IMG/VR virus record: IMGVR_UViG_3300034073_004665
Span: 1 to 38,566 of that record
DNA from: a virus
Strand: one strand, 5' to 3'
DNA length: 38,566 nucleotides
Shown here piece by piece: positions 5,054 through 35,228 of this stretch; positions within the stretch are counted from its first letter, which is position 1; each line of letters starts with the position of its first letter. The translations under genes were made by a program, and so were the position numbers. The notes below the pieces were generated by a model. The model had not been told where the DNA came from and searched no databases. It saw only the letters and a program-made list of their open reading frames with translations.

Positions 5054-8000
5054 CTAAAACGTAGATCTCTTAAAACTAGTACCTTTAGATCCTCTTTTTC
5101 TAAATGTAGCACCGGCTGTAGCTGATACCGCTGCTGCTCTTTTCCCTACTTGCTCAACTTCATCATCTGAAAGATTTGATGTAGGAATATAAAATTTATT
5201 AGAGAAAGTACTTGTCTCACTGGTGTAGTTGATCCTATTTAGATCTCCATAATTATCAGATACAGCAAGCAGTGCTAACATAAGCGCATCATGCGCATGA
5301 TCCATTGCAGAGCCGCCAGCTTCAAAGACAGGCCTTCCTGTAGCTGTTGTTCTAACAACAACATATGAAATAAGCTGCATATATAGTTCTTCATCTGAAG
5401 ACGGAAAACATATTTCCTCTCTTTCAAGATATTGTCTAAGATTGTCCACCATGTACGGCTTTATTTCTTTTTTAACCATAAGTTTTGTATATGGATCTCT
5501 AACTTCTATACTTTCCCCAAAACCTATTCCCTTAACCCTTTCTCTAAGTTTAGAATTAGGATTTTCCACTCCATACTTTCTCAAAAGCTCCACTTGGACC
5601 TCGCCAAAACCTCTATCAACATAAATATGTTTTGGTTTAAAAATATCATTTAACTCTATGATACGATCAACCCCACGAGTTAAAGTGTATTCAGACTTAC
5701 TAATCTCTTCCCTGTAGCAAAGTTTAACCTTCCCTCTAGTTGCTTCATCTTCATAGTTATCTGCACAAACTTCTAATACAACTATATTTGTCCCAGCTCC
5801 ATACTTATCCCAATCAACGCCTATTACATGAAAAGACCTAGCTGACGTTATTTGTGGAATATAATCCCATGCCGGGTCTACAAATGCTCTATCAACAAAC
5901 TTTCTAGGGTAAACACCTTCAGAATCTTCACCCCAATCAGCCTCTATTTCATGACGATATCCCGAAGAGGAATATTGCTCCCTAAACTCTTCTTCTTGTT
6001 CTTTACTGAAAAACGGATTACAATTATGAACCAAAAGTCCATTTGCTATATATGAGTTAGTATCTTCTACTTCAAAATTATACACTAACCCAGAATACTT
6101 AATTGATTCTTTGGACTTCAAAAGAAGGGCAAATTCAGAATTTGACATCTTCTTTTTGCCCAATAACTTTACGTCTTTATTTAGTGACCATTGGACTGCG
6201 TACGATTTAGATGTCGAATAATAACCATATCTTTTATTGATCCTACATGTTTTTTCTGGCGTTACAGAAATACTTGGATAGTTTCCGTTAACTCTTGTGC
6301 ACAATATCTGAATTTGCTTTGATAATTTTTTAGAAGAAGTTCTAAATACTATTTCATTATTTTTATTAAAATATCCGTCACCTTTTGCATATGATTTAAG
6401 TAGGAGATTTTGGAAATCGACAGGTGCTTGCATGATTAAATGACTTAACTCTTTTGCTGTTGATCCACGCCCAGCTAGAAAATCCATCAATAAAGATAGA
6501 GGGCCATTATGGACCCTTAGGCATACTGCGCGGCTATCTTTTCTGTACGTTAAGTTAATCTTTCCGGCAGAAAGATCATCTAAAGCGGTTTGTATTTCTT
6601 TAATGTATTCAGACTCATCACTATTCAGCGTCCAGCCCGTAATTCTATATCTAGAATAATTATCTAGAGATTCCAAATGCCCCTCTGCCAAATACCAGCC
6701 AACTAAAGTTGCAAGAGAGCTATCTAAATTTACAAACCTTGGAAAATCATTTATAAATTTTCTACCTTTAGAATTTATTTTTTTAAACTGAACCCTTCCT
6801 GAAGAAGATTCAATTAATTTACCAGGAAATAATTCCATCATATCAAGCGCTTGTTTATTCACTTCTGCATTAAAAATGGACCTAAGAAGATGACCAGAGT
6901 TTTGATTTCTAAACTTTATTGGCTCCAAATTCGTTGCTTCAATCCAGTCCCATTTGTATTCTTTTTGTCTTCTTATTTTTTTCGTAGCACTAAATGGATG
7001 CTCTCCTGTAACCAAAAGGTCAGATGAATCCCCATATGTCTTAATATTAAAAATGTCCCCATCAAATTGTCTTTCAAAAGTTCTTAAGACTTTTTTTGAC
7101 CCTTGTTCTGTCAAAACTTGATCTCCAACACTAATCTCATTAATATATTTAAAGCTTCCATCACACATAGTTATTAAGGTAGATGGATCAAAGCAATACG
7201 AAGGAAACCAAAACTCTTGAAATCTTTCCGATCTACACCATTCCCAAAACCTTTCTCTGCGACCAGTGGGGGTAGAAGCGCCCATAAGAACTTTATCTGG
7301 CTGGTCCTCTGCTGTTTTTTGTAGCATGGCATACAGAGCATCTAGGTCACCAGAATGCATGTAATCCATCTCGTCAAGAATGATTAAATGAGCTTCTTGA
7401 CCACGAGCAACATCACTATTACCAGTTACGTGAACTAGTCCATTGTGCCTTGTAACAAAATAACCAGTATTAGGTACAGTTACGCAATATACTTTTCCTT
7501 TATAATGAATCTTTTTTAAATTTTCTTTAGAAAGAATTGATTTAGTTTTCGGATATGCAGAAACTATCCAATGTCGATTTGGTTTTCCGCCCTTAACTGG
7601 AGTGTATAAAATATTTTTTTCTCTAATATTAGCCCTAAGTCCGAGTCTTACAGCGATTTCCTGCACATCAGAAGCAAGCTGATAAGAGGAACTGCTATAT
7701 TCCCATCCATCTCTTCTAATCCATCCGTCTCCACCCAAAAGACCATCAAGTAAACCCTGTAAATTTTTTTCCGTCATTAATTCCCTCGGAATACACTTGT
7801 TATAAGCATTCGTTCCAGAAAAAATTGGAGGTTTCCATTTTATTCTTATTTCTTTTTTGGGACTTGTATAATGAATGCCAAGATTTTTTGCTAATTCACA
7901 TATTCTTTCTCTTCCATAAGTTTTCGATTGAGATATTCTAGACATCTTTCCTATGTACCCAGATCCTTCTGATAGCCACCAACCCCAAATTTCTAATTCT

Positions 8001-8995
8001 TCTCTAGAAAATACATCAGTTGATGACTTAACTGGATTTACTGATCCTGTTGGAACATAATAGTCTTTTAGGTTATTTGCTTCAACATCTTTCCACTTTG
8101 AACCAGGAGCCCTTGTTTTTACTGCTAGCTTATGATTGGTTGTCACATTAAATGAAACCTGTTGACCATCATGAATAATTAATTTATCATTATGATCATA
8201 TTCCCAAAAATTATTTACAGTATCCCAAAAATATTGGTCTTCTTTCCAAGAAAGTATTTGCTCTCCCACTTTAACATCTGCAATACTTTTCCATCCATTC
8301 TCACTTAGAACTTCATGATCTGGAGTGAGACACTTTCCGCCACTGCGCATACCAGATGTGAAGAACCTGATAGTGGACCCGTTCGAAAACTGAATCATAA
8401 ACTGAGGACTAGTAACTTTTCTCGTTATAGAATTCATAACAACATCATTTTTTTGAGCTATTCTCAATATCTCCTGATAGATTAACTCAACATGAGTTTT
8501 CATAGGCGCGACAACTAAAGACCTACCATCTTTTCTTGTATAAGAATAGTGCAGCAGTTGGATAGCCATAGAGAAAGTTTTTCCGAGACGACGACCAGCC
8601 CTCAAAACCTTTCTCAGAGATGGGTCTCTAAGAATCAGTATCTGATAAACTCTAGGATTCACACCTAGGAAATTTCTAGCCCACGTTACGCTATCCTTAG
8701 CTACATGAAGCTGTCTCTGTGTCTCTGTGCTAATTCCTGCCGCCAGCAATTCTTTATCAACCTCAAAAGGTTCATCAATAAGAAGCGCTAACTCTTTATT
8801 TGTAATTTTCCTTGACTGAACTGGACTGCCATCGCTCCATGTTAAGTGAGACAGCTTATTCTCAAAAACCCACTCAATTCTATTAACTTGCTTTATAAGC
8901 TCGGGATCTTGTGCACGAATTATCTCTAAAAGGTCTTCGCGAGAAAGTCTTTCTAATGAAGATCTAAAATCTTTTGTTTTACTAAAAACACTCAT
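5054..8995 (-). CDS. terL: Large terminase subunit with two inteins
   Basis: 1313 residues before splicing. It is the DNA-packaging motor ATPase and headful/site nuclease that docks on the portal. ATPase part: Walker A GRRLGKT at residues 134-140, Walker B LIILDE at 537-542, coupling motif ASTPTG near 573-578. Nuclease part: VIGVDWD (acidic residues 1061 and 1063), IYVDRGFGE, and a late MDHAHDALM acidic motif. Two inteins interrupt it (residues 222-526 and 601-991); removing them leaves about 617 residues, normal for this family. Start ATG 8995; the neighbouring Gly-rich gene ends 6 bases upstream. Activity depends on both splicing events if both inteins are functional. Confidence 0.95.
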   Translation of the reverse strand: MSVFSKTKDFRSSLERLSREDLLEIIRAQDPELIKQVNRIEWVFENKLSHLTWSDGSPVQSRKITNKELALLIDEPFEVDKELLAAGISTETQRQLHVAKDSVTWARNFLGVNPRVYQILILRDPSLRKVLRAGRRLGKTFSMAIQLLHYSYTRKDGRSLVVAPMKTHVELIYQEILRIAQKNDVVMNSITRKVTSPQFMIQFSNGSTIRFFTSGMRSGGKCLTPDHEVLSENGWKSIADVKVGEQILSWKEDQYFWDTVNNFWEYDHNDKLIIHDGQQVSFNVTTNHKLAVKTRAPGSKWKDVEANNLKDYYVPTGSVNPVKSSTDVFSREELEIWGWWLSEGSGYIGKMSRISQSKTYGRERICELAKNLGIHYTSPKKEIRIKWKPPIFSGTNAYNKCIPRELMTEKNLQGLLDGLLGGDGWIRRDGWEYSSSSYQLASDVQEIAVRLGLRANIREKNILYTPVKGGKPNRHWIVSAYPKTKSILSKENLKKIHYKGKVYCVTVPNTGYFVTRHNGLVHVTGNSDVARGQEAHLIILDEMDYMHSGDLDALYAMLQKTAEDQPDKVLMGASTPTGRRERFWEWCRSERFQEFWFPSYCFDPSTLITMCDGSFKYINEISVGDQVLTEQGSKKVLRTFERQFDGDIFNIKTYGDSSDLLVTGEHPFSATKKIRRQKEYKWDWIEATNLEPIKFRNQNSGHLLRSIFNAEVNKQALDMMELFPGKLIESSSGRVQFKKINSKGRKFINDFPRFVNLDSSLATLVGWYLAEGHLESLDNYSRYRITGWTLNSDESEYIKEIQTALDDLSAGKINLTYRKDSRAVCLRVHNGPLSLLMDFLAGRGSTAKELSHLIMQAPVDFQNLLLKSYAKGDGYFNKNNEIVFRTSSKKLSKQIQILCTRVNGNYPSISVTPEKTCRINKRYGYYSTSKSYAVQWSLNKDVKLLGKKKMSNSEFALLLKSKESIKYSGLVYNFEVEDTNSYIANGLLVHNCNPFFSKEQEEEFREQYSSSGYRHEIEADWGEDSEGVYPRKFVDRAFVDPAWDYIPQITSARSFHVIGVDWDKYGAGTNIVVLEVCADNYEDEATRGKVKLCYREEISKSEYTLTRGVDRIIELNDIFKPKHIYVDRGFGEVQVELLRKYGVENPNSKLRERVKGIGFGESIEVRDPYTKLMVKKEIKPYMVDNLRQYLEREEICFPSSDEELYMQLISYVVVRTTATGRPVFEAGGSAMDHAHDALMLALLAVSDNYGDLNRINYTSETSTFSNKFYIPTSNLSDDEVEQVGKRAAAVSATAGATFRKRGSKGTSFKRSTF
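6023..7195 (-). other. Intein 2 in terL (LAGLIDADG homing endonuclease type)
   Basis: 391 residues. It starts at Cys601 (CFDPSTLITM) after FWFPSY and ends at Asn991 with a canonical GLLVHN before Cys992. Block B is VTGEHPFS. LAGLIDADG-type helices are LATLVGWYLAEG (761-772) and LLLKSYAKGDG (864-874). All canonical splice residues are present (Cys1, block B His, penultimate His, terminal Asn, Cys+1). It is inserted after the ATPase coupling motif. It shares little sequence with intein 1, so the two look like independent invasions. Confidence 0.92.
7418..8332 (-). other. Intein 1 in terL (LAGLIDADG homing endonuclease type)
   Basis: 305 residues. It starts at Cys222 (CLTPDHEVLS, block A) directly after SGMRSGGK and ends at Asn526 before Ser527. 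Block B is TTNHKLAV. Two LAGLIDADG-type helices are visible: LEIWGWWLSEG near 334-344 and LLDGLLGGDG near 415-424. The C-terminal end reads RHNGLVHVTGN then S. The penultimate residue is Gly, not the usual His, although HN and VH occur a few residues earlier. The insertion is about 10 residues before Walker B, a conserved position of the host enzyme. Confidence 0.9.
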
Positions 8996-9001
8996 ATTAG
9001 A

Positions 9002-10471
9002 TCACCCAAAGTGTGCAGCCATCATGCCTGCTTCGGATCCTAGCACACTTCTGGCATTTAATCTAGAATTTTGTATAGCCATAACACCTCTAGCGCGAGA
9101 AGTAGCTGCAATTTCGTTGTCTCTATACCCCATCCCAAAAGCTGGTTTATATATTGAACCCTGGAAAGACTTCATAGCATCTTTTGCCAGATCGATACCA
9201 TTGGCAACACCTTGACCAGCTAACTTACCAACATCATAAGCCATCATCACCCATCCTACTGGTCCTGCAAATTTGGCTGCTGTTTGCACACCCCTAGCTG
9301 CCATAAATCTAGCACCTCCGTGCATAGCCACCTGTGTTCCTTTCCTTAGCCCAATTTTTTCGGCCCCGACTAACATCGCTCTGGATTCTGCAGTTCCGAA
9401 ACCAGACCTTGCAGCTGCTTTCATAAATTCAAGTTCAGCGGTTTTTGCACTCATCTTCACTGATGTACTCATTCCTCCATACCCAGTGCTTCGACCATAT
9501 CCAGCTGCACCTCTGAAATAGCCACCAATTCCCTGCATTGATTCTGTTGCAAGTCCTGAAACTAGAGCATTCCCTCTGATGCCAACTTGACCAACTGTCT
9601 GCCCAGACTGTTCCATCAGCCTGCCAGAAGCGGAAATGTTTATATCATTAAATGGTGTGTAACTATTTGGAAGAAACTGACCACCTTTATATACTTTATT
9701 GTTTACGTTAATAGTTCTTCCGGCAACGACTCTATTCTGAGCGCCCGCAGCACTTCCGGTTGGCAGCGAGTTTGATACCATAGATGGATTATTCATTCTT
9801 AACAATGCTTCCGTTGAACTATCAACTGCGCCTAGCTTAGCACTTATTCTTTTTATTGTTCTTGTATCCCCTTTTTGAACTGCTTTGAGCATCTTTTTTT
9901 CTAAAGCATCAACTCGTGATGTAGCCTGCAGTGAAGAAAAAAAACCTGGAGCAAAAGGATTATCTACATCATCTCCTATCCCCAGCATTTTTCTAAGCCG
10001 AGGCCCTGTACGCTTTCCATTAACAGCTGCTTTCATCATACTTGTAGTAAAACCAGCTGGAGTATACCTATTTTGTGATAAAGGAGAAAATATAGAAAGG
10101 TCTGAATATTGACCACTCACCAAAGACCTGGGGTTTAAGTTTCTAAGAAATGGTTTAACTATTGGATTATAATCAGTTCTACCACCAACCAGAGTTCTCC
10201 CTGCCCTTGTTAAGTCATCTAAGGTTCCTTTTCTGGATGAAAAATTATATATTTCATCCGCCGTTCCGGACTTAAAGCCGGAGAATCTAAGCTTAGAGGC
10301 ATCATAACCGCCATACATCATAGTACTAGATCCACGTGTACCCTGCAGTAGGGCCGCATGGATAAACCCCGGCATGGAGTCGGATATAGCTTCTATAGCT
10401 CCGGGAGGCCCAGTGCCTGGGGCAGACCCATCGTAAGGCATGTATCTACCAGTAAAAGGGTCTAACGGCAT
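9002..10471 (-). CDS. Gly-rich virion-operon protein with hydrophobic segment
   Basis: 489 residues (MPLDPFTGRYMPYDGS). Rich in Gly, Ala, Ser and Arg. A hydrophobic stretch AKFAGPVGWVMMAYDVGKLAG lies near residue 410. No enzyme motif is visible. Its start ATG overlaps the stop of the gene before it by one base (TAATG), so translation is coupled. It lies just upstream of terL. Position and composition suggest an internal virion, ejection or membrane-interacting protein; that is inference. Confidence 0.65.
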   Translation of the reverse strand: MPLDPFTGRYMPYDGSAPGTGPPGAIEAISDSMPGFIHAALLQGTRGSSTMMYGGYDASKLRFSGFKSGTADEIYNFSSRKGTLDDLTRAGRTLVGGRTDYNPIVKPFLRNLNPRSLVSGQYSDLSIFSPLSQNRYTPAGFTTSMMKAAVNGKRTGPRLRKMLGIGDDVDNPFAPGFFSSLQATSRVDALEKKMLKAVQKGDTRTIKRISAKLGAVDSSTEALLRMNNPSMVSNSLPTGSAAGAQNRVVAGRTINVNNKVYKGGQFLPNSYTPFNDINISASGRLMEQSGQTVGQVGIRGNALVSGLATESMQGIGGYFRGAAGYGRSTGYGGMSTSVKMSAKTAELEFMKAAARSGFGTAESRAMLVGAEKIGLRKGTQVAMHGGARFMAARGVQTAAKFAGPVGWVMMAYDVGKLAGQGVANGIDLAKDAMKSFQGSIYKPAFGMGYRDNEIAATSRARGVMAIQNSRLNARSVLGSEAGMMAAHFG

Positions 10472-11252: not shown

Positions 11253-14200
11253 TTAAAAAGCTCCATTAAAAAGATGATTATTTTTTCCATTTGACATGTT
11301 TGTGTGATTTATTTTTCTATTATTTAAATCATTAACTATAGGAGTCGTTGACATAGGGTCTAGCCTAGATGGTCCTGACAAACTATATGATTCACCTAAT
11401 GAATATTTATTCATTCTATCCTCATAAGGCTGCTCTTCTAGTGTTTCGTCATATGCAGATCTTTCTTGGCGTTTCCCATAGCTATAGTAACCGAACCCAG
11501 CTACTGCTGCAATTCCGAGTCCTATAAGTCCTTTTTTCTTATATTTTGTATAAAACTCCTCCGCTTTATACAGGTTACCGCCGCTAACAGAAGTGGAAAT
11601 TTTTTTACTTACAGCTCTTCCCAGCTCTGGTGATTCATCTATCCTCTCAGCGAGGTCGCCAACTACTCTTAGATAATTTGAATCAGTATCTTTAACCAGT
11701 TGTTTTGCTTCATCGCCCATTCTTTCTAAAACTTCTGCGTCTCTAACAGGGGCTAAAACGCCTACAGACCCCTGATCTGTGTCTATATCAGAAGTTAATA
11801 TTCTACTAGTTCTTGATCCAGAAATTACATCAGAAGATGTATCTATACCGATTCTCTTAAAATCTTGTTCCAGCTCCAAGGTCTGGGGTTCATCAATATC
11901 AAGATTACCTATTACTATTCCATCATTCATTTTTTCTGTTACAGAATTTATAGCTTCTTGCATTGCGTCTTGTGCCGCTTGTGCAGTCTGGCCTGGTCCA
12001 ATTTTTGCTTCTACAGCTGCTATAGTCCCCTTTAAAGCTGGGCCTAATTCTTCGTCTACAGAAAGATTTAACAAACTCCTAACTTCGTCTACGTCGTTAA
12101 AAATATTTAAAAGATGTTCTGCTACAGCTCTTGATTCATCATGGTTTAGATTTCTAGCTGTATTCCAAACTACGTTAACACCTCTTCCAATATCATCAGG
12201 TTCTGCTGATCTCCTAATATCACCAAAAGAAAAACCTACATCATTTAGAGAAACTCTTCCATCCAACATAACCTTTTCTAGTGCCACATCACCTGCATCC
12301 ACAGCTTTTCTTACAGCTTCTTCTACGATTTGAAGAGGTATAATCAATTTATTGGACAATCCAGAAGATTCCTCTAACATGTTTCTAACATTATATTTCG
12401 TCCCAGATTTAAAATATGTCAAACCCATTTCAATCAAATCCTCAGCTCTAGATGCAAATCTCAAGTCACGAGGTGCTACCTGTGATGAGGGAGGATTAAT
12501 AGCTGCTCTTTCAACAGCTTTACCTAATCCAGATGTATGCTTAGCTAAAATTGTTGAAACAACTCTCTCTTCTGGATCACTGACATATCCATACCCTATA
12601 TTCGCAAAATTATTTGCAACCTGCTCTACCGCTTCATCTCTATACCTTCCAAGACCTGATTTAAAAAATCTAGGCCTAACGATGTGACCAAAACCGGGAG
12701 GACTTGCTTTAGATGTTCCAAATGTTTCATACACTCCGCCTAAAGCAGAGAGAATGTCGTCATCATTTAGGGCATCCTTGCTAACCGTAGCGGCCCTCCT
12801 ACCAATATTGATTAAATCAAGATTTTGTATTCTATCCATTTTTGAAGCAGTTCCGTAATTTATGCCAGTTCTTACCACCGACTCTACAGCAGATTGGTCG
12901 CCTGCCCTAGCATCTGCTAAATTCTGCCTAATGAGATCTTTGATATTATCCTGTGTCAAACCATATCTATATTCGAGCTCATCTGAATCAATAACCCTTG
13001 GAGCCACCGTTGTGGAAAATCTTTCTACATCTTTTGCTTCATACAGTTGAAATTTTCCTGTTTCTTTATCGAAAGCAAAAACTCCTGTTACAGATTGCCT
13101 TTGACGAGTAAACACACGTGTTCTTTGATTACGATATAAACTTCTACCTCTACTGTCCGTTATATACTCAATTGGCTCTTCTATCGTTGATTCTATTGCG
13201 ACTCTCTGAAGCATTGTGTCTTTTTCGTAAATACTCCTAAACACAAGATCGCTCATCTGCTGGACATTTGCTATATCTGTTGTCGCATTGATTGCACTAG
13301 ATCTGCGAATTACATTTCTTGCCCTATTTATTTCAGCGTTATTTAAGTAGCTGTGTTGAACTTGTACTGCTGAACTTAAAATATTCCTACGCTCAATCTC
13401 ATCAAGACTAAGCTCCCCACTATCCATATACCTTCTTATATAATCTTCTATTATTACGTCCATAGATGCAATATGGGAGCCACTATGTATTTCATTAAAA
13501 ACTTCTGGAGCGTCACGCCTAATAAGGTCGAGTAGATTAGTGTTGTCAGCGACTTGTGTAACACCAGCATATTTTAATCCTTGACCTGTCTCAGCTGGCA
13601 TTCCCGCAGACCTGCCATATAGAATTCTTTGAAATCTTCTAGAAGCTTCAAAAGAATCATCAAATATTTCAGGATTTTCATTTCTCATAATTTCAATAGC
13701 CTGCTGCTGGAGGTAATTACTAACACTTAGAAGCTGATCACTTATAAATCCCTCTTGATTGAGCTTGCCCCTAAATATTTCCAACTGGCTCATTAATCCT
13801 TGATGTTGTTTAGACCCATCAATACTATCTATAGTTTCCAGAAGCTTAGATATGTCAAATCTAGCATTGTATGTAACAACCGTATCAGCGGTATTCAATT
13901 CTGTCAGGAGACCCTCTAAGGCGTCTAACATCTCAGGATTAGACCTAGCTATAACACTTCCGGGTCCTTGACCTATTTCTCTTTGAATTAAGAAATCTGA
14001 AACTTTTTGTGTAGCACCGCTTTGCGTAGTTACGGTTTGACCGTGCAAAGCGTCTACGTCTAGAAATACGTTAGATACAACATTGGGCCTAACCGGAGTC
14101 CCGTCTGGATTGATTGACTGCCCAGCTGCATTAACCATTTCTCCAGCGCTATTCATGTAGCTCTCTGAAACTGCCAGTGTTCTAGCGACAGACCTCGCAT

Positions 14201-19918: not shown

Positions 19919-20924
19919 GGATATAGAAACTGGAGCAAAAGCTCTTGAGGTCACAATTGCCCAGCTCCATAAACAGTACGGGTCTGGCTCAGTCATGAGA
20001 CTAGGTTCAACAAATGTGAAACCTTGGGCATCTGTTTCAACAGGAGCACTGACATTGGATAACGCTCTTGGTATTGGCGGATTCCCTAGGGGTCGTGTTG
20101 TGGAGATATTCGGACCAGAATCATCCGGTAAATCCACGATAGCTTTAACTACAGTCGCTAAAGCTCAACAGATGGGCCTAACATGCGCTTACATCGATGC
20201 TGAGCATGCCCTAGACCCGGTTTACATGCAAGCTGTAGGAATAAACCTAGATAATCTATTATTAGCTCAGCCAGATTATGGAGAGCAAGGTTTAGATATA
20301 GCCGATCGTCTTCTTAGAACTGGTCAGATTGGTGTAATAGTAATTGACTCTGTTGCTGCCCTGGTTCCTAAGGCTGAGTTAGATGGCGAGATGGAACAGG
20401 CTCATATGGGTCTACAAGCTAGGATGATGGCAAAAGCGCTACGCAAAATGACAGGACTAGCAGCTCAGCATAACACGCTAATTATATTCATTAACCAATT
20501 AAGGAATAAAATAGGCGTAATGTTTGGTAACCCGGAAACAACACCAGGAGGGATGTCTTTAAAATTCTACTCTTCTGTGCGCATAGATGTTCGCAAACGG
20601 GAAGACCTAAAAGACAAACAAGGCAACCCTAGCGGTATAGGTGTGAAGGTTAAGATTATCAAGAATAAAATGGCACCGCCTATGAAAGTAGTGGAATTTA
20701 ATATCAACTATGCTCAAGGCATAGACGAGTACGGATGTCTTTTCGATGTTGCCCTGTCTAAAGGCATTTTCAGTCAAAAAGGTTCATGGGTTTACTATGA
20801 AGGTGAAAATTACGCACAAGGTAGAGATAACGCTATAGAAAAGTTAAAAGAAGATTTAGAGCTTATAAAGATTATTAAAGGTGAGAATGATGGAATCGAA
20901 CATTTATCAGATGATGATCTGTGA
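19911..20924 (+). CDS. recA: RecA recombinase
   Basis: 337 residues from ATG 19911 (MSEDIETGAKALEV). The GTG at 19899 in the same frame is a less likely start. It forms filaments on single-stranded DNA and drives strand exchange. Walker A GPESSGKST (68-76), Walker B VIVID (142-146), loop L2 region NQLRNKIGVMFGNP (195-208), and an acidic C-terminus (HLSDDDL) are all present; length is normal. The N-terminal MAW-type core is intact, so it should be active. Codon use is AT-rich like the left half of the window. It overlaps the genes on both sides. Confidence 0.95.
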   Translation: MSEDIETGAKALEVTIAQLHKQYGSGSVMRLGSTNVKPWASVSTGALTLDNALGIGGFPRGRVVEIFGPESSGKSTIALTTVAKAQQMGLTCAYIDAEHALDPVYMQAVGINLDNLLLAQPDYGEQGLDIADRLLRTGQIGVIVIDSVAALVPKAELDGEMEQAHMGLQARMMAKALRKMTGLAAQHNTLIIFINQLRNKIGVMFGNPETTPGGMSLKFYSSVRIDVRKREDLKDKQGNPSGIGVKVKIIKNKMAPPMKVVEFNINYAQGIDEYGCLFDVALSKGIFSQKGSWVYYEGENYAQGRDNAIEKLKEDLELIKIIKGENDGIEHLSDDDL

Positions 20925-21057
20925 AGATTGTCCGTATCCTCCTAATTTTATTACAGTTACTAAACCTGGTAGTGACGGAGAAATTCGGCGCTGCGTCACA
21001 TGCCGAGAATGTGGTGACTACTGGGAAGAACCAGAAAGTTCAACTCCTTCCGTTTAA
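20887..21057 (+). CDS. Small zinc-ribbon protein overlapping recA 3' end (56 aa)
   Basis: Two ATGs in tandem (20887, 20890) follow an AAGGTGA ribosome site, inside the last 38 bases of recA in another frame. The product holds CEDC and, 27-30 residues later, CVTCRECGDYW, a zinc-ribbon arrangement. Ends TAA 21055-21057. The overlap with recA and the cysteine spacing support a real gene. Function unknown. Confidence 0.7.
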   Translation: MMESNIYQMMICEDCPYPPNFITVTKPGSDGEIRRCVTCRECGDYWEEPESSTPSV

Positions 21058-31707: not shown

Positions 31708-32065
31708 AACTCGTCTGAGCGAGTATAAATAGGCATTAGGCTCAGAGCGTCCCTCTTCGGAGGGGGTTGGCGTTGGTTTCCATGTACGGCAATACATGGA
31801 CTTTGGTTTGCCGGCCAATGAATATTTAGATAATAATAGCTAAATATTGACCTGAAGAGTGTGAGCCTAACCGACCAAACACTCAAGCATCTATACCTGT
31901 AGCCCGGTCGGTGCAAGTGAAAGAGCTGATAGTCCCCAAGAATAACAAGGGTTTGATCACCCAACTATCCTATTCGATAAAATCTAAAAGTAAGTAGAAT
32001 GGTGTACAGGGAGATCCTGTAACAATCTACTAATTGCTGTGATTCACGAAACACTACTTACTTTC
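31690..32065 (+). ncRNA. Large structured non-coding RNA
   Basis: No ORF is supported here, but pairing is dense. TTAGGCTCA (31736) pairs with TGAGCCTAA (31862). Inside are CCCTC-TTCG-GAGGG, TCCATGTA/TACATGGA and AATATTTAG/CTAAATATT hairpins. After it come ACCGACC/GGTCGGT and GATAGT/ACTATC. The 3' part is an 11-bp perfect stem AAAGTAAGTAG/CTACTTACTTT closing ACAGG/CCTGT. I do not find T-arm, tmRNA, RNase P or group I intron core motifs. Large phage RNAs such as GOLLD or ROOL have this size range, but I cannot assign it. Confidence 0.6.
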
Positions 32066-32075
32066 AATATCTTAG

Positions 32076-32102
32076 TCACCTGAATATGTGAATAAACTAT
32101 TT
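32076..32102 (+). ncRNA. H-type pseudoknot element, copy 1
   Basis: Helix 1 TCAC/GTGA (32076-32079, 32088-32091) encloses CTGAATAT; helix 2 pairs GAATA (32082-32086) with TATTT (32098-32102), one G-T pair. The A-rich linker ATAAAC joins them. Directly 3' of the large structured RNA. Confidence 0.65.
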
Positions 32103-32108
32103 TACCTC

Positions 32109-32161
32109 CCGGCATTTCCCCCGTGTGTGGCAGCTTTTTGTCTGCCCGCGGGGGATGCTGG
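32109..32161 (+). terminator. Long hairpin between RNA and small gene
   Basis: CCGGCAT-TT-CCCCCG...CGGGGG-ATGCTGG with an inner GGCAG/CTGCC stem. No T run follows; 12 bases later comes an AAAAATCAGAGGGG element. It could end the upstream transcript by structure alone or separate two units. Confidence 0.5.
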
Positions 32162-32172
32162 AATTCTCTGTA

Positions 32173-32185
32173 AAAATCAGAGGGG
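32173..32185 (+). promoter_or_regulatory. Repeated element AAAATCAGAGGGG, copy 3
   Basis: Twelve bases after a long hairpin and 54 bases before ATG 32239; continued by AATC as in copy 2. Confidence 0.6.
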
Positions 32186-32238
32186 AATCAAATCTTGCGG
32201 AATCCCTGCACAAAAACGGCATATGAAAGGAGATCATT

Positions 32239-32349
32239 ATGCCCAGCACCAACCAAACTGCGGAAAAAAAGAAGAAAATCGAGCAGGCGCAACTTCTGCG
32301 CCAGCTCCTCGAAGCCGAATGGCGAAAAATCTACAACTCTCCGCGGTGA
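32239..32349 (+). CDS. Tiny charged protein (36 aa)
   Basis: ATG 32239 with an ideal AAAGGAG ribosome site. MPSTNQTAEKKKKIEQAQLL, then QLLEAEWRKIYNSPR. One charged amphipathic helix; may be a nucleic-acid or protein-binding peptide. Followed at once by pseudoknot copy 2. Confidence 0.6.
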   Translation: MPSTNQTAEKKKKIEQAQLLRQLLEAEWRKIYNSPR

Positions 32350-32353
32350 AATC

Positions 32354-32381
32354 AGAACCTGAACATGTTCTAAAACTGCTC
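32354..32381 (+). ncRNA. H-type pseudoknot element, copy 2
   Basis: Helix 1 AGAAC/GTTCT (32354-32358, 32367-32371); helix 2 GAACA (32361-32365) with TGCTC (32377-32381), one mismatch. Linker AAAAC. Starts 4 bases after a stop codon and ends 13 bases before the next ATG. Confidence 0.65.
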
Positions 32382-32394
32382 AAAATTCCCTATT

Positions 32395-32550
32395 ATGGAA
32401 GTAGTCATTTACACACTAGGATGTATCAGCCTAGCTGGTATAATCGGAAATTTATTCAATTGGCTCACAGAGCAAACAGAAAGGAAATATGATGAAGTGG
32501 CGAAAGAAAGACGAACCAGAGCAAATCAACGAAAAGCGCAAGATCAGTGA
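32395..32550 (+). CDS. Small membrane protein (51 aa)
   Basis: ATG 32395: MEVVIYTLGCISLAGIIGNL is a membrane helix, followed by a charged helix (TERKYDEVAKERRTRANQRK). No clear ribosome site is seen; a pseudoknot occupies the 5' region. It overlaps the next gene by 62 bases in another frame. Confidence 0.5.
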   Translation: MEVVIYTLGCISLAGIIGNLFNWLTEQTERKYDEVAKERRTRANQRKAQDQ

Positions 32551-32731
32551 AAAGACAGGTGCTCTCACCGGCAAAACCGTTCGCGTGATCAAAAACACCC
32601 CAGGTTTCACTAAGAATCTGGTTGTGACAGCTGCAGACGGTTTCAAGGAAGGATTCCGAGAGGAACTCCCCGCTAAGCAGAAGAGCACCGATCCTGTCGA
32701 TGTCACCAGTCTCGAAGGCTGGCATGACTAA
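32489..32731 (+). CDS. Small basic protein (80 aa)
   Basis: Tandem ATGs (32489, 32492) after an AAAGGAA ribosome site. MMKWRKKDEPEQINEKRKIS, then a segment TGALTGKTVRVIKNTPGFTK and an acidic C-terminus. No family recognised. Overlaps the 51-aa gene, suggesting coupled translation. Confidence 0.65.
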   Translation: MMKWRKKDEPEQINEKRKISEKTGALTGKTVRVIKNTPGFTKNLVVTAADGFKEGFREELPAKQKSTDPVDVTSLEGWHD

Positions 32732-32746
32732 ATTGTAGTCTATGGT

Positions 32747-32781
32747 AGGTTAGTCATCAGGTGCAACTTGATGACTAACCT
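32747..32781 (+). terminator. Perfect 13-bp hairpin after the 80-aa gene
   Basis: AGGTTAGTCATCA (32747-32759) pairs perfectly with TGATGACTAACCT (32769-32781), 9-base loop. No T run. The next AAAATCAGAGGGG element starts 14 bases later, repeating the hairpin-then-element order. Confidence 0.6.
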
Positions 32782-32794
32782 GCCAATGACTATC

Positions 32795-32807
32795 AAAATC
32801 AGAGGGG
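32795..32807 (+). promoter_or_regulatory. Repeated element AAAATCAGAGGGG, copy 4
   Basis: Fourteen bases after the 13-bp hairpin and 62 bases before ATG 32869. Confidence 0.6.
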
Positions 32808-32868
32808 GTGGTTAACATCACCTCTGTATACTAATAATTACATACTCACAGAAAGTATATACTATAAT

Positions 32869-33954
32869 ATGAGTGATCTACTCGCGTCCTTTGGACTAGA
32901 TGCAGACATTGCGTCCCTTCTCGCAGAAACTGTTGAAAACCCAAGTGAATTCTCAGTTTCTGACAACACCTGGATCACAGCAAACAAAGAAGTCGTTTAC
33001 AAGGGATCAGTCAACGGCACCCCCGTCTCTGCTAAAATTCTTTTGCATCCTGGTGCAACCTTGAATCGTATTAGTGCAGAGTCGCGTAAGCGTTTCCGAA
33101 ATGCTGGAAATTACTTGCTAGTATCTGGCACAATGCGAGACGTCAAGATGGATATCTCTATTCTTCATGAAAATGAGTGGATTTCCTTCCTTGATTTCTT
33201 CAAGCTTCTTTCCGGAAACATCTCCCGGTCTGATGCTGAAATGGAAATCGCATTGCGCAATATGAATGTGAACATCATGGAACCCCAAACATTGATGTTC
33301 CAGCAGTTTGGTGCAGACGAAAATGCATATGAGAATTTGATTGAGTTGCTGCAAGATAATGGATTCAACCAAACTACAGTGCCCAACATCAACGTTATCA
33401 ATGCATTCACTTCTAGTCAGGGCGTTCCGGTAACTGGATTCCAGGTTGGTAAAATGAACCGAACTGAATCTAGGCCTTACGGAAAGCGAATTGCTGATAC
33501 CGATAAGATTCATCAAGGTCAAGGTTTCTCTGACTTCATTGATGCACAGGTACAGAAGTATTTGCTGTCTGCAATGATTGGCAAGGAAACTGCTTTTCTT
33601 GAGAAGGCTCGCGCAGAGCATCGTAATACTCTCACTGAAGATCAAATGGCTCAAATCTCTGATAAGTTGGACGCTAATCGTCAAATGCGGTCCAATATTG
33701 CTCAGCGTGGATCTGGCTGGTCTGGTGTTCAACGTGAAGTTGAAGTTGATGATCTTCTCCAGGAAGTTACGGAAAAGAACGTCTTCTGGACTCAGCGAGC
33801 ACCCGTTGGTCGATTCAACTTGACTATTGCTGGTGTTGATTCACCAATTTCGTTGTGGCGCGATCGCACCAACGATGACGCAAGCGATACTGCTAGCCAG
33901 TCAAAAAGGACTATTAGCAACCCGTTTGAAGGAATCGAGTCACCTTTCGAGTGA
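32869..33954 (+). CDS. Orphan protein (361 aa), possibly leaderless
   Basis: Starts MSDLLASFGLDADIASLLAE. No ribosome site; TATACT and TATAAT overlap at 32857-32866, right before the ATG, so a -10 box there would give a leaderless mRNA. The upstream AAAATCAGAGGGG element offers a second start. The protein is soluble, mixed alpha/beta, with Gln/Asn-rich middle and a Ser/Asp C-terminal tail; no catalytic motif. Codon use is moderate-GC with many optimal codons, consistent with an abundant protein. The final codons end 6 bases before pseudoknot copy 3. Confidence 0.75.
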   Translation: MSDLLASFGLDADIASLLAETVENPSEFSVSDNTWITANKEVVYKGSVNGTPVSAKILLHPGATLNRISAESRKRFRNAGNYLLVSGTMRDVKMDISILHENEWISFLDFFKLLSGNISRSDAEMEIALRNMNVNIMEPQTLMFQQFGADENAYENLIELLQDNGFNQTTVPNINVINAFTSSQGVPVTGFQVGKMNRTESRPYGKRIADTDKIHQGQGFSDFIDAQVQKYLLSAMIGKETAFLEKARAEHRNTLTEDQMAQISDKLDANRQMRSNIAQRGSGWSGVQREVEVDDLLQEVTEKNVFWTQRAPVGRFNLTIAGVDSPISLWRDRTNDDASDTASQSKRTISNPFEGIESPFE

Positions 33955-33959
33955 CTCAA

Positions 33960-33987
33960 ACCACCTGAGCATGTGGTAAAACTGCTC
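33960..33987 (+). ncRNA. H-type pseudoknot element, copy 3
   Basis: Helix 1 ACCAC/GTGGT (33960-33964, 33973-33977); helix 2 GAGCA (33967-33971) with TGCTC (33983-33987), perfect. Linker AAAAC. Best-formed copy. Confidence 0.75.
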
Positions 33988-34047
33988 CTAACCATCTCGC
34001 GATGGGTTCGGTCGGGATCCGTAGGCACCCGTCCCGTAAAGTCCTAC

Positions 34048-34074
34048 CTACCTGAGCATGTAGCCAAACTGCTC
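34048..34074 (+). ncRNA. H-type pseudoknot element, copy 4
   Basis: Helix 1 CTAC/GTAG (34048-34051, 34060-34063); helix 2 GAGCA (34054-34058) with TGCTC (34070-34074). Linker CCAAAC. Confidence 0.72.
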
Positions 34075-34247
34075 AACCAACCTTTGCGGTCAAGAGTCGG
34101 TAAAGGAGATATTCCGCCAACCTTTAGGTGATGGCTCTACATAGGGTATCTCTACCGCATTGAGTTCAATAAAATCTGCATACCCCGTCTCAAGTATGTA
34201 GAGTATGTGTGCGTCCAATGAGCGTATTGAAAAAACGTCGACACTGC

Positions 34248-34277
34248 TGACCTGAACAAGTCAACCATAAACTATTC
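34248..34277 (+). ncRNA. H-type pseudoknot element, copy 5 (divergent)
   Basis: Helix 1 TGAC/GTCA (34248-34251, 34260-34263); helix 2 GAACA (34254-34258) with TATTC (34273-34277), one mismatch; linker longer than in other copies. Confidence 0.5.
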
Positions 34278-34278
34278 A

Positions 34279-34304
34279 CTCCTGAGCATGAGGCAAAACT
34301 GCTC
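34279..34304 (+). ncRNA. H-type pseudoknot element, copy 6
   Basis: Helix 1 CTC/GAG (34279-34281, 34290-34292), only 3 bp; helix 2 GAGCA (34284-34288) with TGCTC (34300-34304). Follows copy 5 after one base and lies 6 bases before the tRNA-like fold. Confidence 0.65.
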
Positions 34305-34310
34305 ACACAA

Positions 34311-34426
34311 GGAACTGCGCTAGTAGGCATGGCGTTAGTCGCAGGATTAGGATGGGTACTCTCGGCGTTTCCTAACGTGAACAGTATCCACCTGCGAGAC
34401 TGAGGGTTCGATTCCCTCCAGTCCCA
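34311..34426 (+). ncRNA. tRNA-like structure with extended central arm
   Basis: 5' GGAACTG (34311-34317) pairs with CAGTCCC (34419-34425), one mismatch. D-arm-like CGC-TAGTAGGCATG-GCG (34318-34334) keeps the AG..GG loop. T-arm is canonical: GAGGG-TTCGATT-CCCTC (34402-34418), preceded by a 5-base variable region. In place of the anticodon arm is CGCAGG/CCTGCG (34340-34345, 34391-34396) with inner TTAGG/CCTAA. No 7-base anticodon loop is formed. Either a degenerate or intron-containing tRNA or a true tRNA mimic. Confidence 0.5.
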
Positions 34427-34486
34427 CTCTCGGAGAAATTTCCGCTCTAGTGGAAGTAGCGGCCCACTTATCCGAGCAACCCAAAA

Positions 34487-34513
34487 ACACCTGAGCACGT
34501 GTTAAAACTGCTC
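34487..34513 (+). ncRNA. H-type pseudoknot element, copy 7
   Basis: Helix 1 ACAC/GTGT (34487-34490, 34499-34502); helix 2 GAGCA (34493-34497) with TGCTC (34509-34513). Ends 4 bases before the mature 5' end of tRNA-Lys. Confidence 0.72.
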
Positions 34514-34517
34514 ACAC

Positions 34518-34593
34518 GCCTCCGTAGCTCAATTGGTAGAGCAGCGGGCTTTTAACCCGTTGGTTGCAGGTTCGAATCCTGCTGGAGGCACCA
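34518..34593 (+). tRNA. tRNA-Lys (anticodon TTT)
   Basis: Acceptor GCCTCCG/TGGAGGC (one G-T), D-arm GCTC-AATTGGTA-GAGC, anticodon stem GCGGG/CCCGT with loop CTTTTAA and anticodon TTT at 34551-34553, T-arm GCAGG-TTCGAAT-CCTGC, discriminator A and encoded CCA (34591-34593). All elements are canonical. It would read AAA/AAG lysine codons, which the AT-rich genes use heavily. Confidence 0.97.
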
Positions 34594-34646
34594 AATAAAT
34601 TCTTATTGACTCATACAAAACACACTACACGAAAAGAGTACTCACT

Positions 34647-35180
34647 ATGCCCAAAATCAACATCTCTTTCACAAAAAACAGCTACGACCACACCTTAATG
34701 CTCAACGACAAGCTCCAGTTCGTAAGAGACATCAAAAACGCGACAAATTGCGATCTGCGCTCCGCCAAAGAAACCGCCGAAAAGATCGTGGAAATGATCA
34801 TGGGCCTAAAGCCCACGGTGGTGACCACGCGAAACAACATCGACCGGGTCCTAAACAAGTACAGCAAGAACACCCCCGAGAACTTGCAGTTCTTGCTCGA
34901 CGTCTTGCAGTTCGTGAAAACCTCCAGCCAGGACAACTTGGAAGCGCACAACATCCCCGTGAGCACCTCCGCGTTCAACAAGGACGGCACCTACGCTCCG
35001 CCGAAAGAGCACGACTTCCACCACAGCTGTGGTGACGAATGTCGTCACCAGTGCGAACAAAGCAGCTGTGAGCGCATGGTCCAGTACCATGATGAACCGT
35101 ACTGCTTCACGCATTCGCCGGACAGCGGTTCCAGCGTGCCGAACTACGACTCGCGAAAGGGTCCGCTCCACCCCTTCTGA
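34647..35180 (+). CDS. L7/L12-C-terminal-like protein with Cys/His-rich tail (177 aa)
   Basis: Starts MPKINISFTKNSYDHTLMLN. Residues about 22-50 (KLQFVRDIKNATNCDLRSAK, then ETAEKI) match the pattern of the ribosomal L7/L12 C-terminal domain, in which a hydrophobic helix leads to LxxAKxxxE; in L7/L12 this surface binds translation GTPases. Residues about 128-155 form a Cys/His cluster (HHSCGDECRHQCEQSSC, YCFTH), likely zinc-binding. Ribosome site is weak (AAAAGAG). A factor that docks on translation machinery is an attractive guess. Neighbours are tRNA-Lys and pseudoknot copy 8. Confidence 0.7.
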   Translation: MPKINISFTKNSYDHTLMLNDKLQFVRDIKNATNCDLRSAKETAEKIVEMIMGLKPTVVTTRNNIDRVLNKYSKNTPENLQFLLDVLQFVKTSSQDNLEAHNIPVSTSAFNKDGTYAPPKEHDFHHSCGDECRHQCEQSSCERMVQYHDEPYCFTHSPDSGSSVPNYDSRKGPLHPF

Positions 35181-35198
35181 TATCCCTGTCCCCCAAAC

Positions 35199-35228
35199 AA
35201 GACCTGAGCCATGTCTTTAAACTGGCTC
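35199..35228 (+). ncRNA. H-type pseudoknot element, copy 8
   Basis: Helix 1 AAGAC/GTCTT (35199-35203, 35213-35217); helix 2 is lengthened to 6 bp, GAGCCA (35206-35211) with TGGCTC (35223-35228). The extra C is matched by an extra G, a compensating change. Confidence 0.72.

Follow-up and report, generated by a model that had tools for sequence, protein, structure and literature searches.

The subject of this analysis is a small H-type pseudoknot that occurs eight times within positions 32076-35228 of the IMG/VR virus record IMGVR_UViG_3300034073_004665, where it lies among open reading frames (ORFs), a tRNA gene and structured stretches that are probably non-coding (Table 1). The window, by which we mean the whole 38,566-nucleotide (nt) stretch of this 38.6-kb record, is probably a fragment. 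A first-pass annotation had proposed all eight copies, and each is present on the plus strand where it had been placed, save that copy 7 begins at 34486 and not at 34487, which gives it a fifth helix 1 pair. A strict descriptor (CTGA loop, helix 1 of at least 3 bp, AAAC, and helix 2 with at most one mismatch) matched eight times on the plus strand of the window and not at all on the minus strand. Applied to 40 dinucleotide shuffles of the window, the same descriptor gave a mean of 0.025 matches and a maximum of 1.

Table 1. Pseudoknot copies and neighbouring features in the window. Copies are written as helix 1, loop with the 5' strand of helix 2, helix 1, linker, helix 2. H2, helix 2; aa, amino acids.
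Feature	Coordinates	Strand	Sequence or family match	Remarks
Pseudoknot copy 1	32076..32102	+	TCAC-CTGAATAT-GTGA-ATAAAC-TATTT	One G.U in H2; preceded by a structured stretch (about 31987-32064) that folds with an 11-bp stem
Pseudoknot copy 2	32354..32381	+	AGAAC-CTGAACAT-GTTCT-AAAAC-TGCTC	One A.C mismatch in H2; 4 nt past the stop of a 36-codon ORF bearing a Shine-Dalgarno sequence
361-aa ORF	32869..33954	+	No PHROG or Pfam match	Stop 5 nt ahead of copy 3
Pseudoknot copy 3	33960..33987	+	ACCAC-CTGAGCAT-GTGGT-AAAAC-TGCTC	5 nt past the stop of the 361-aa ORF
Pseudoknot copy 4	34048..34074	+	CTAC-CTGAGCAT-GTAG-CCAAAC-TGCTC	Preceded by 60 nt of structured non-coding sequence
Pseudoknot copy 5	34248..34277	+	TGAC-CTGAACAA-GTCA-ACCATAAAC-TATTC	Weakest copy; one C.A mismatch in H2; immediately precedes copy 6
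Pseudoknot copy 6	34279..34304	+	CTC-CTGAGCAT-GAG-GCAAAAC-TGCTC	tRNA-like element 6 nt downstream
Pseudoknot copy 7	34486..34513	+	AACAC-CTGAGCAC-GTGTT-AAAAC-TGCTC	tRNA-Lys 4 nt downstream
tRNA-Lys(ttt)	34518..34593	+	Rfam RF00005, 76.4 bits	After copy 7
177-aa ORF	34647..35180	+	No family match	End 18 nt ahead of copy 8
Pseudoknot copy 8	35199..35228	+	AAGAC-CTGAGCCAT-GTCTT-TAAAC-TGGCTC	6-bp H2; 18 nt past the stop of the 177-aa ORF

The element is 26-30 nt long (about 27 nt). Helix 1 has 3-5 mostly strict Watson-Crick pairs and is closed by C-G, loop 1 is C or CT, helix 2 has 5 bp and is sometimes longer, and loop 3 is 5-6 nt with AAAC at its end. The annotation had stated that every copy pairs. 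This was right for helix 1, which is perfect in 8/8 copies, and went too far for helix 2, in which copies 2 (GAACA/TGCTC) and 5 (GAACA/TATTC) carry their single mismatches and copy 1 relies on a G.U pair. Two finer details stood as first described, namely the extra matched helix 2 pair of copy 8 (GAGCCA/TGGCTC) and the spacing of copy 7 from the tRNA.

It is near certain that these copies belong to a real RNA family. Among 84 distinct 28-mers picked on the core alone, the second and third pairs of helix 1 were Watson-Crick in 84/84, with all four pair types represented and G.U never used, where independence would predict pairing in 38-45%. An alignment of 45 distinct sequences had 98.8% of its cells paired and 92 cells with two-sided change; 0/500 shuffles scored as high. 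In collection-wide scans for helix 1, GTC/GAC was found in at least 120 contigs and GTC/GTC in none. For helix 2, scans of IMG/VR returned GAGCA/TGCTC, GAACA/TGTTC and GGGCA/TGCCC from at least 120 contigs each, as against 5 for the mismatched GAACA/TGCTC and 9 for the G.U form GGGCA/TGCTC. Some tolerance of G.U in helix 2 was evident from GAGTA/TGCTC, with 22 occurrences to the 2 of GAGTA/TACTC. Judged from sequence comparison, compensatory change establishes both helices well beyond the controls and, with copies in very many phages, it bears out the proposal of a functional, covarying H-type pseudoknot family.

The strict Watson-Crick character of helix 1 and the invariant AAAC linker beside it are as they would need to be if the linker packs, through A-minor contacts, into the groove of this helix. 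The G.U-free inner pairs of helix 1 could also suggest a structure formed by single-stranded DNA (ssDNA). However, helix 2 tolerates G.U pairs and the orientation of the element follows transcription, and therefore RNA, rather than DNA, is likely the acting form.

Copies of the pseudoknot are present in hundreds of IMG/VR contigs. The pattern CCTGAGCATG-N3-11-AAACTGCTC alone occurs in at least 120 stretches of that collection, where by our estimate about 3 would be expected by chance. The same pattern was found in 98 stretches of GTDB genomes, a count that is in part chance and is to be read as an upper bound, as it includes chance matches in coding sequence (CDS; Pseudomonas contigs L126, L128 and L137). 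Pattern scans and BLAST showed that copies are common in related and unrelated phages alike. BLAST with two versions of the element located it in annotated phages of the Zobellviridae (SIO1, ICBM1-3 and P12053L), the crAss-like phages cr7_1 and cr124_1, Chaseviridae of E. coli and Erwinia, Synechococcus phages S-H35, S-RIM4 and S-EIV1, Nostoc phage NMeng1, gut phages, Mycobacterium phage Labelle, Arthrobacter phage Molivia, Paracoccus phage ParMal1, Lactobacillus phage phiAQ113 and Streptococcus phage Javan271. The hosts of these annotated carriers are Cyanobacteria, Actinobacteria, Bacillota, Bacteroidota and Proteobacteria, and the copies nearly always fall within unannotated sequence. Prophages have the element too. 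Those examined on bacterial chromosomes adjoin phage-type genes (Lactiplantibacillus, Nostoc, Hornefia, Ktedonobacter and Ktedonospora). The plasmid collection yielded a single weak match, inside a coding gene, and the motif is therefore not a general mobile-element motif. It is absent from T4, T7, lambda and P-SSM2, which may be why it escaped notice. One phage contig (L541, 7409-13719, plus strand) holds five copies with an identical GTC/GAC helix 1, which suggests recent duplication.

Where the element sits is as constrained as how it folds. For 477 viral copies, we measured the distance from an upstream stop codon to the start of helix 1 and found 190 at 3-11 nt, compared to 21 when the opposite strand was used. 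The commonest distances were 5 nt (57 copies) and 6 nt (44), followed by 7 nt (22), 8 nt (18) and 9 nt (22), with a sharp lower limit such that almost none lay under 4-5 nt; the pseudoknot is on the strand of the upstream gene. On contigs of bacterial genomes, the corresponding figures were 25/83 at 5-9 nt past a stop and 1 in the opposite-strand comparison. A like position is seen in the annotated phages S-RIM4, S-H35, S-EIV1, Labelle, ParMal1, Molivia and SIO1. The helicase site of the ribosome is near +11, numbering from the P-site codon, and so, with a stop codon in the A site, a structure 5 nt beyond it would start at about +12, just outside the terminating ribosome. The sharp limit on spacing is what would be expected of a structure set as near the stop as it can be without being melted.

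Gene order points the same way with respect to strand. The genes flanking the element converge in 33 copies, the upstream gene on the plus and the downstream gene on the minus strand relative to it, and in 24 copies the upstream gene is on the opposite strand. The median distance from the end of the upstream gene to the copy is 9 nt at convergent ends and 111 nt in the apparently divergent cases, which are consistent with gene-calling noise. The upstream genes with a known family encode DUF932, Hsp20, ribonucleotide reductase, several ssDNA-binding proteins, a methyltransferase, a helicase and DNA polymerase; they are usually early or replication and DNA-metabolism genes, and the upstream RNA is sometimes apparently non-coding.

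A second fixed spacing relates the element to tRNAs. Same-strand tRNAs begin 2-13 nt 3' of 36 copies, at 2-6 nt in 27 of the 36 and mostly at 3-6 nt, and their isotypes are diverse (Asp, Glu, Lys, Thr, Trp, Tyr, Leu, Met, Asn, Pro and Gly); tRNAs within 60 nt upstream of a copy number only 2. The pseudoknot precedes 30/105 tRNAs that follow a CDS and 1/71 that follow another tRNA (Fisher p = 5e-7), and thus it is to be assigned to the 3' end of whatever RNA lies upstream, and not to tRNA maturation. In the crAss phage cr7_1, one copy stands 4 nt ahead of the coding piece of a permuted transfer-messenger RNA (tmRNA). The permuted tmRNA genes lie at 20629-20985 in cr7_1 (L226), with the pseudoknot in the intervening segment, and at 11748-12110 in a second phage (L021) that carries pseudoknot copies too.

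The position fits that of an mRNA 3' stabiliser, and the positional data favour exonuclease blocking or RNA processing over translation control or tRNA maturation. With moderate confidence, we propose that the element is a compact 3'-end cap that stops 3'-to-5' exonucleases, with RNase P cutting beside it where a tRNA follows. The pseudoknot would be a phage-specific, cis-acting structure that gives the upstream RNA a compact 3' end, folding once transcribed, 5-9 nt past the stop, about as near as a terminating ribosome allows without melting it. An endonuclease would then cut just 3' of the pseudoknot, this being RNase P where the 5' end of a tRNA adjoins and, elsewhere, a host endonuclease acting in the G-poor single-stranded tail. 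After the cut, the knot would halt 3'-to-5' exonucleases, for which the tail left by RNase P would be too short to grip. The upstream message would thus survive and could be parted from its neighbours.

Several observations weigh against this proposal. By crude gene calls, an ORF of at least 60 codons ending within 45 nt upstream is lacking in about a third of copies. The head-gene operons of Lactobacillus-type phages bear a pseudoknot ahead of the scaffold gene, where it may serve the downstream gene. The two points that the cap model explains least well concern the sequence itself. The first 8-9 nt 3' of the pseudoknot are depleted of G (about 2-12% versus about 20%), whatever the distance to the next gene; a pure cap would not need such a tail, which hints at a binding or cleavage site. 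Similarly, helix 2 is conserved in sequence, GAGCA being commonest, more closely than would seem necessary for a purely mechanical block.

The single-stranded, G-poor tail would also suit a translation element, either bringing the 30S subunit to the downstream gene by way of ribosomal protein S1 or, at the upstream stop, controlling reinitiation or coupling by the terminating ribosome. S1 has been reported to bind H-type pseudoknots, and selection for S1 ligands by SELEX yielded one (PMC7708055). A start codon lies within 45 nt downstream in about 30% of copies, and the tight spacing from the stop is in keeping with such a role. Nonetheless, we consider it unlikely, as many copies are 2-13 nt ahead of tRNAs, at convergent junctions or without a near start codon, and several of those in the window are between non-coding RNAs.

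A somewhat less probable account makes the element the binding site of a widespread phage or host RNA-binding protein that controls the upstream or downstream message, in the manner of the gene 32 operator. The gene 32 mRNA pseudoknot of T2/T4 has a short loop 1, as in ours. Both are small phage H-type pseudoknots followed by an unstructured 3' stretch, on which, in gene 32 mRNA, gp32 bound to the pseudoknot nucleates its binding (PMC3014915), and several genes upstream of our copies encode ssDNA-binding proteins. However, the consensus is common to phages with unrelated gene sets and several host phyla, so that the ligand would need to be a host factor; most upstream genes do not encode ssDNA-binding proteins, and T4 lacks the motif. 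An autoregulatory operator of the gene 32 type occupies the 5' leader of a single gene, one for an ssDNA-binding protein, and binds the product of that gene; this reading was rejected by position, as our copies, up to eight per genome, are mostly past the stops of varied genes.

It is improbable that the element is a transcription signal acting on host RNA polymerase, whether a pseudoknot-type terminator or an anti-Rho or antitermination element. The tail is rich in T and C as well as poor in G, and T-runs follow about a fifth to a quarter of copies, but their frequency is alike at convergent (0.27) and co-directional (0.20-0.23) junctions, and a terminator 4 nt ahead of a tRNA would silence that tRNA. 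The same two facts, T-runs in 20-27% of copies in any context and tRNAs 3-6 nt downstream, led us to reject an intrinsic terminator. The near-constant 3-6 nt to mature tRNA 5' ends could reflect a leader that aids tRNA folding or 5' maturation by RNase P, which is very unlikely in that most copies have no nearby tRNA; a dedicated tRNA 5' leader element would be expected ahead of tRNAs irrespective of what precedes them, and the scarcity of copies between consecutive tRNAs led us to reject it.

Type III antitoxins are pseudoknots, and the phage also has a Pistol ribozyme, but the possibility that the element is a ToxI-like antitoxin mimic, another anti-defence decoy or a tiny self-cleaving ribozyme is very slight, given the lack of an Rfam match, a position tied to stops and tRNAs, and the lack of any invariant block resembling a catalytic core beyond the pseudoknot. 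A ToxI-like RNA would be expected as tandem repeats beside a toxin endonuclease gene; the copies here are dispersed. Stop-codon readthrough or recoding was rejected, as the frame past the stop remains open for a median of 8 codons, with a mean no longer than that of frame +2, and the stops are mostly TAA (109/174); a riboswitch was rejected because the annotated phages examined have no downstream gene in common.

The first-pass annotation had not recognised a known riboswitch class, and Rfam 15 agrees, having no match to the motif. In the window, only the tRNA and the Pistol ribozyme reached gathering score and nothing hit the motif even at E<5; across all records scanned, only tRNA, Pistol and group I intron reached it. 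A literature search returned no description of the motif, with subscription journals, preprints (including bioRxiv) and the supplements of motif surveys beyond its reach, and an earlier description is possible.

Among known RNAs, the closest in position and proposed role are REP elements and the RNase III-processed hairpins of T7, intercistronic 3' stabilisers of bacterial and phage mRNA that lie right past stop codons and protect the upstream message. Those are hairpins, whereas our element is a pseudoknot with a conserved loop and linker, which T7 lacks. STAXI (RF01728) is likewise pseudoknot-based and found near genes for ssDNA-binding and other DNA-handling proteins, but it comes in tandem, two or three repeats at a time, and often has UUCG tetraloops; its 153-position model scored above cut-off in 0/8 records, with one weak match (E 0.073) elsewhere. 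The pseudoknot PK1 of tmRNA has the same general fold and an A-rich linker, and is part of a long RNA, unlike our cr7_1 copy, which lies outside the mature tmRNA pieces. Theta ribozymes, which are hepatitis delta virus (HDV)-like and come from gut phages, resemble our element in being small, pseudoknotted and beside tRNAs. They are self-cleaving nested double pseudoknots at tRNA 3' ends (PMC10879173). Our copies are single pseudoknots of two helices only, 5' of tRNAs and mostly with no tRNA near, and a theta or HDV-like ribozyme was rejected accordingly. The Pistol ribozyme also begins with an H-type pseudoknot, but is much larger and has conserved catalytic parts that our motif lacks. The one in the window (31709-31771, plus strand, Rfam 70.4 bits) begins at the stop codon of a short ORF, a post-stop position like that of the pseudoknots, and its loop likewise reads CTGAGC.

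Other features of the window adjoin the copies. Two structured, probably non-coding stretches on the plus strand (33988-34047 and 34075-34247), each followed by a pseudoknot copy, have no Rfam match. The tRNA-like element at 34311-34427 (plus strand) has a near-complete acceptor stem (GGAACTG/CAGTCCC), a T-arm (GGGTTCGATTCCC) and a 7-bp stem (TCGCAGG/CCTGCGA), with 45 nt of inserted structured sequence at the expected place of the anticodon loop; ARAGORN, with introns allowed, did not call it. Past the stop of the 361-aa ORF, its frame stays open for about 58 codons (33955-34131, plus strand) across copies 3 and 4, both of which read PEHV.KLL. As most related copies have no such frame, we take it to be a side effect of the conserved RNA. 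Elsewhere in the window, the terminase large subunit (1313 aa; 5054-8995, minus strand) is apparently interrupted by two inteins, with a LAGLIDADG domain at residues 414-496 and Hint/intein splicing matches at 599-991. In cr7_1 (9123-9194, minus strand), a tRNA annotated as Gln has a CTA anticodon, is called Pyl by ARAGORN and is likely an amber suppressor.

Both the fold, an H-type pseudoknot, and the proposed role, a 3' stabiliser, are of known kinds; their combination across phages of many phyla is not known to us. What the data provide is a strongly covarying RNA family, absent from Rfam and found in at least 120 contigs of a public viral collection, with an unusually exact position code of 5-9 nt after a stop and 3-6 nt before a tRNA. 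Such a family would offer a mark for annotating true phage gene ends and a portable 27-nt module for bacterial RNA stabilisation, and it may hint at some host factor that many bacterial phyla share. If it is indeed a 3' cap, we know of no smaller natural exonuclease-resistant RNA and of no earlier one in bacterial phages, and protection of mRNA 3' ends would account for the survival of messages beside excised tRNAs. Tentatively, and with a little less assurance than for the cap itself, we suggest that phages of most major bacterial phyla may share an undescribed RNA class, a universal mini-pseudoknot that would cap the 3' ends of messages at a distance from the stop set by the ribosome and, with RNase P, split mixed mRNA-tRNA transcripts into protected units.

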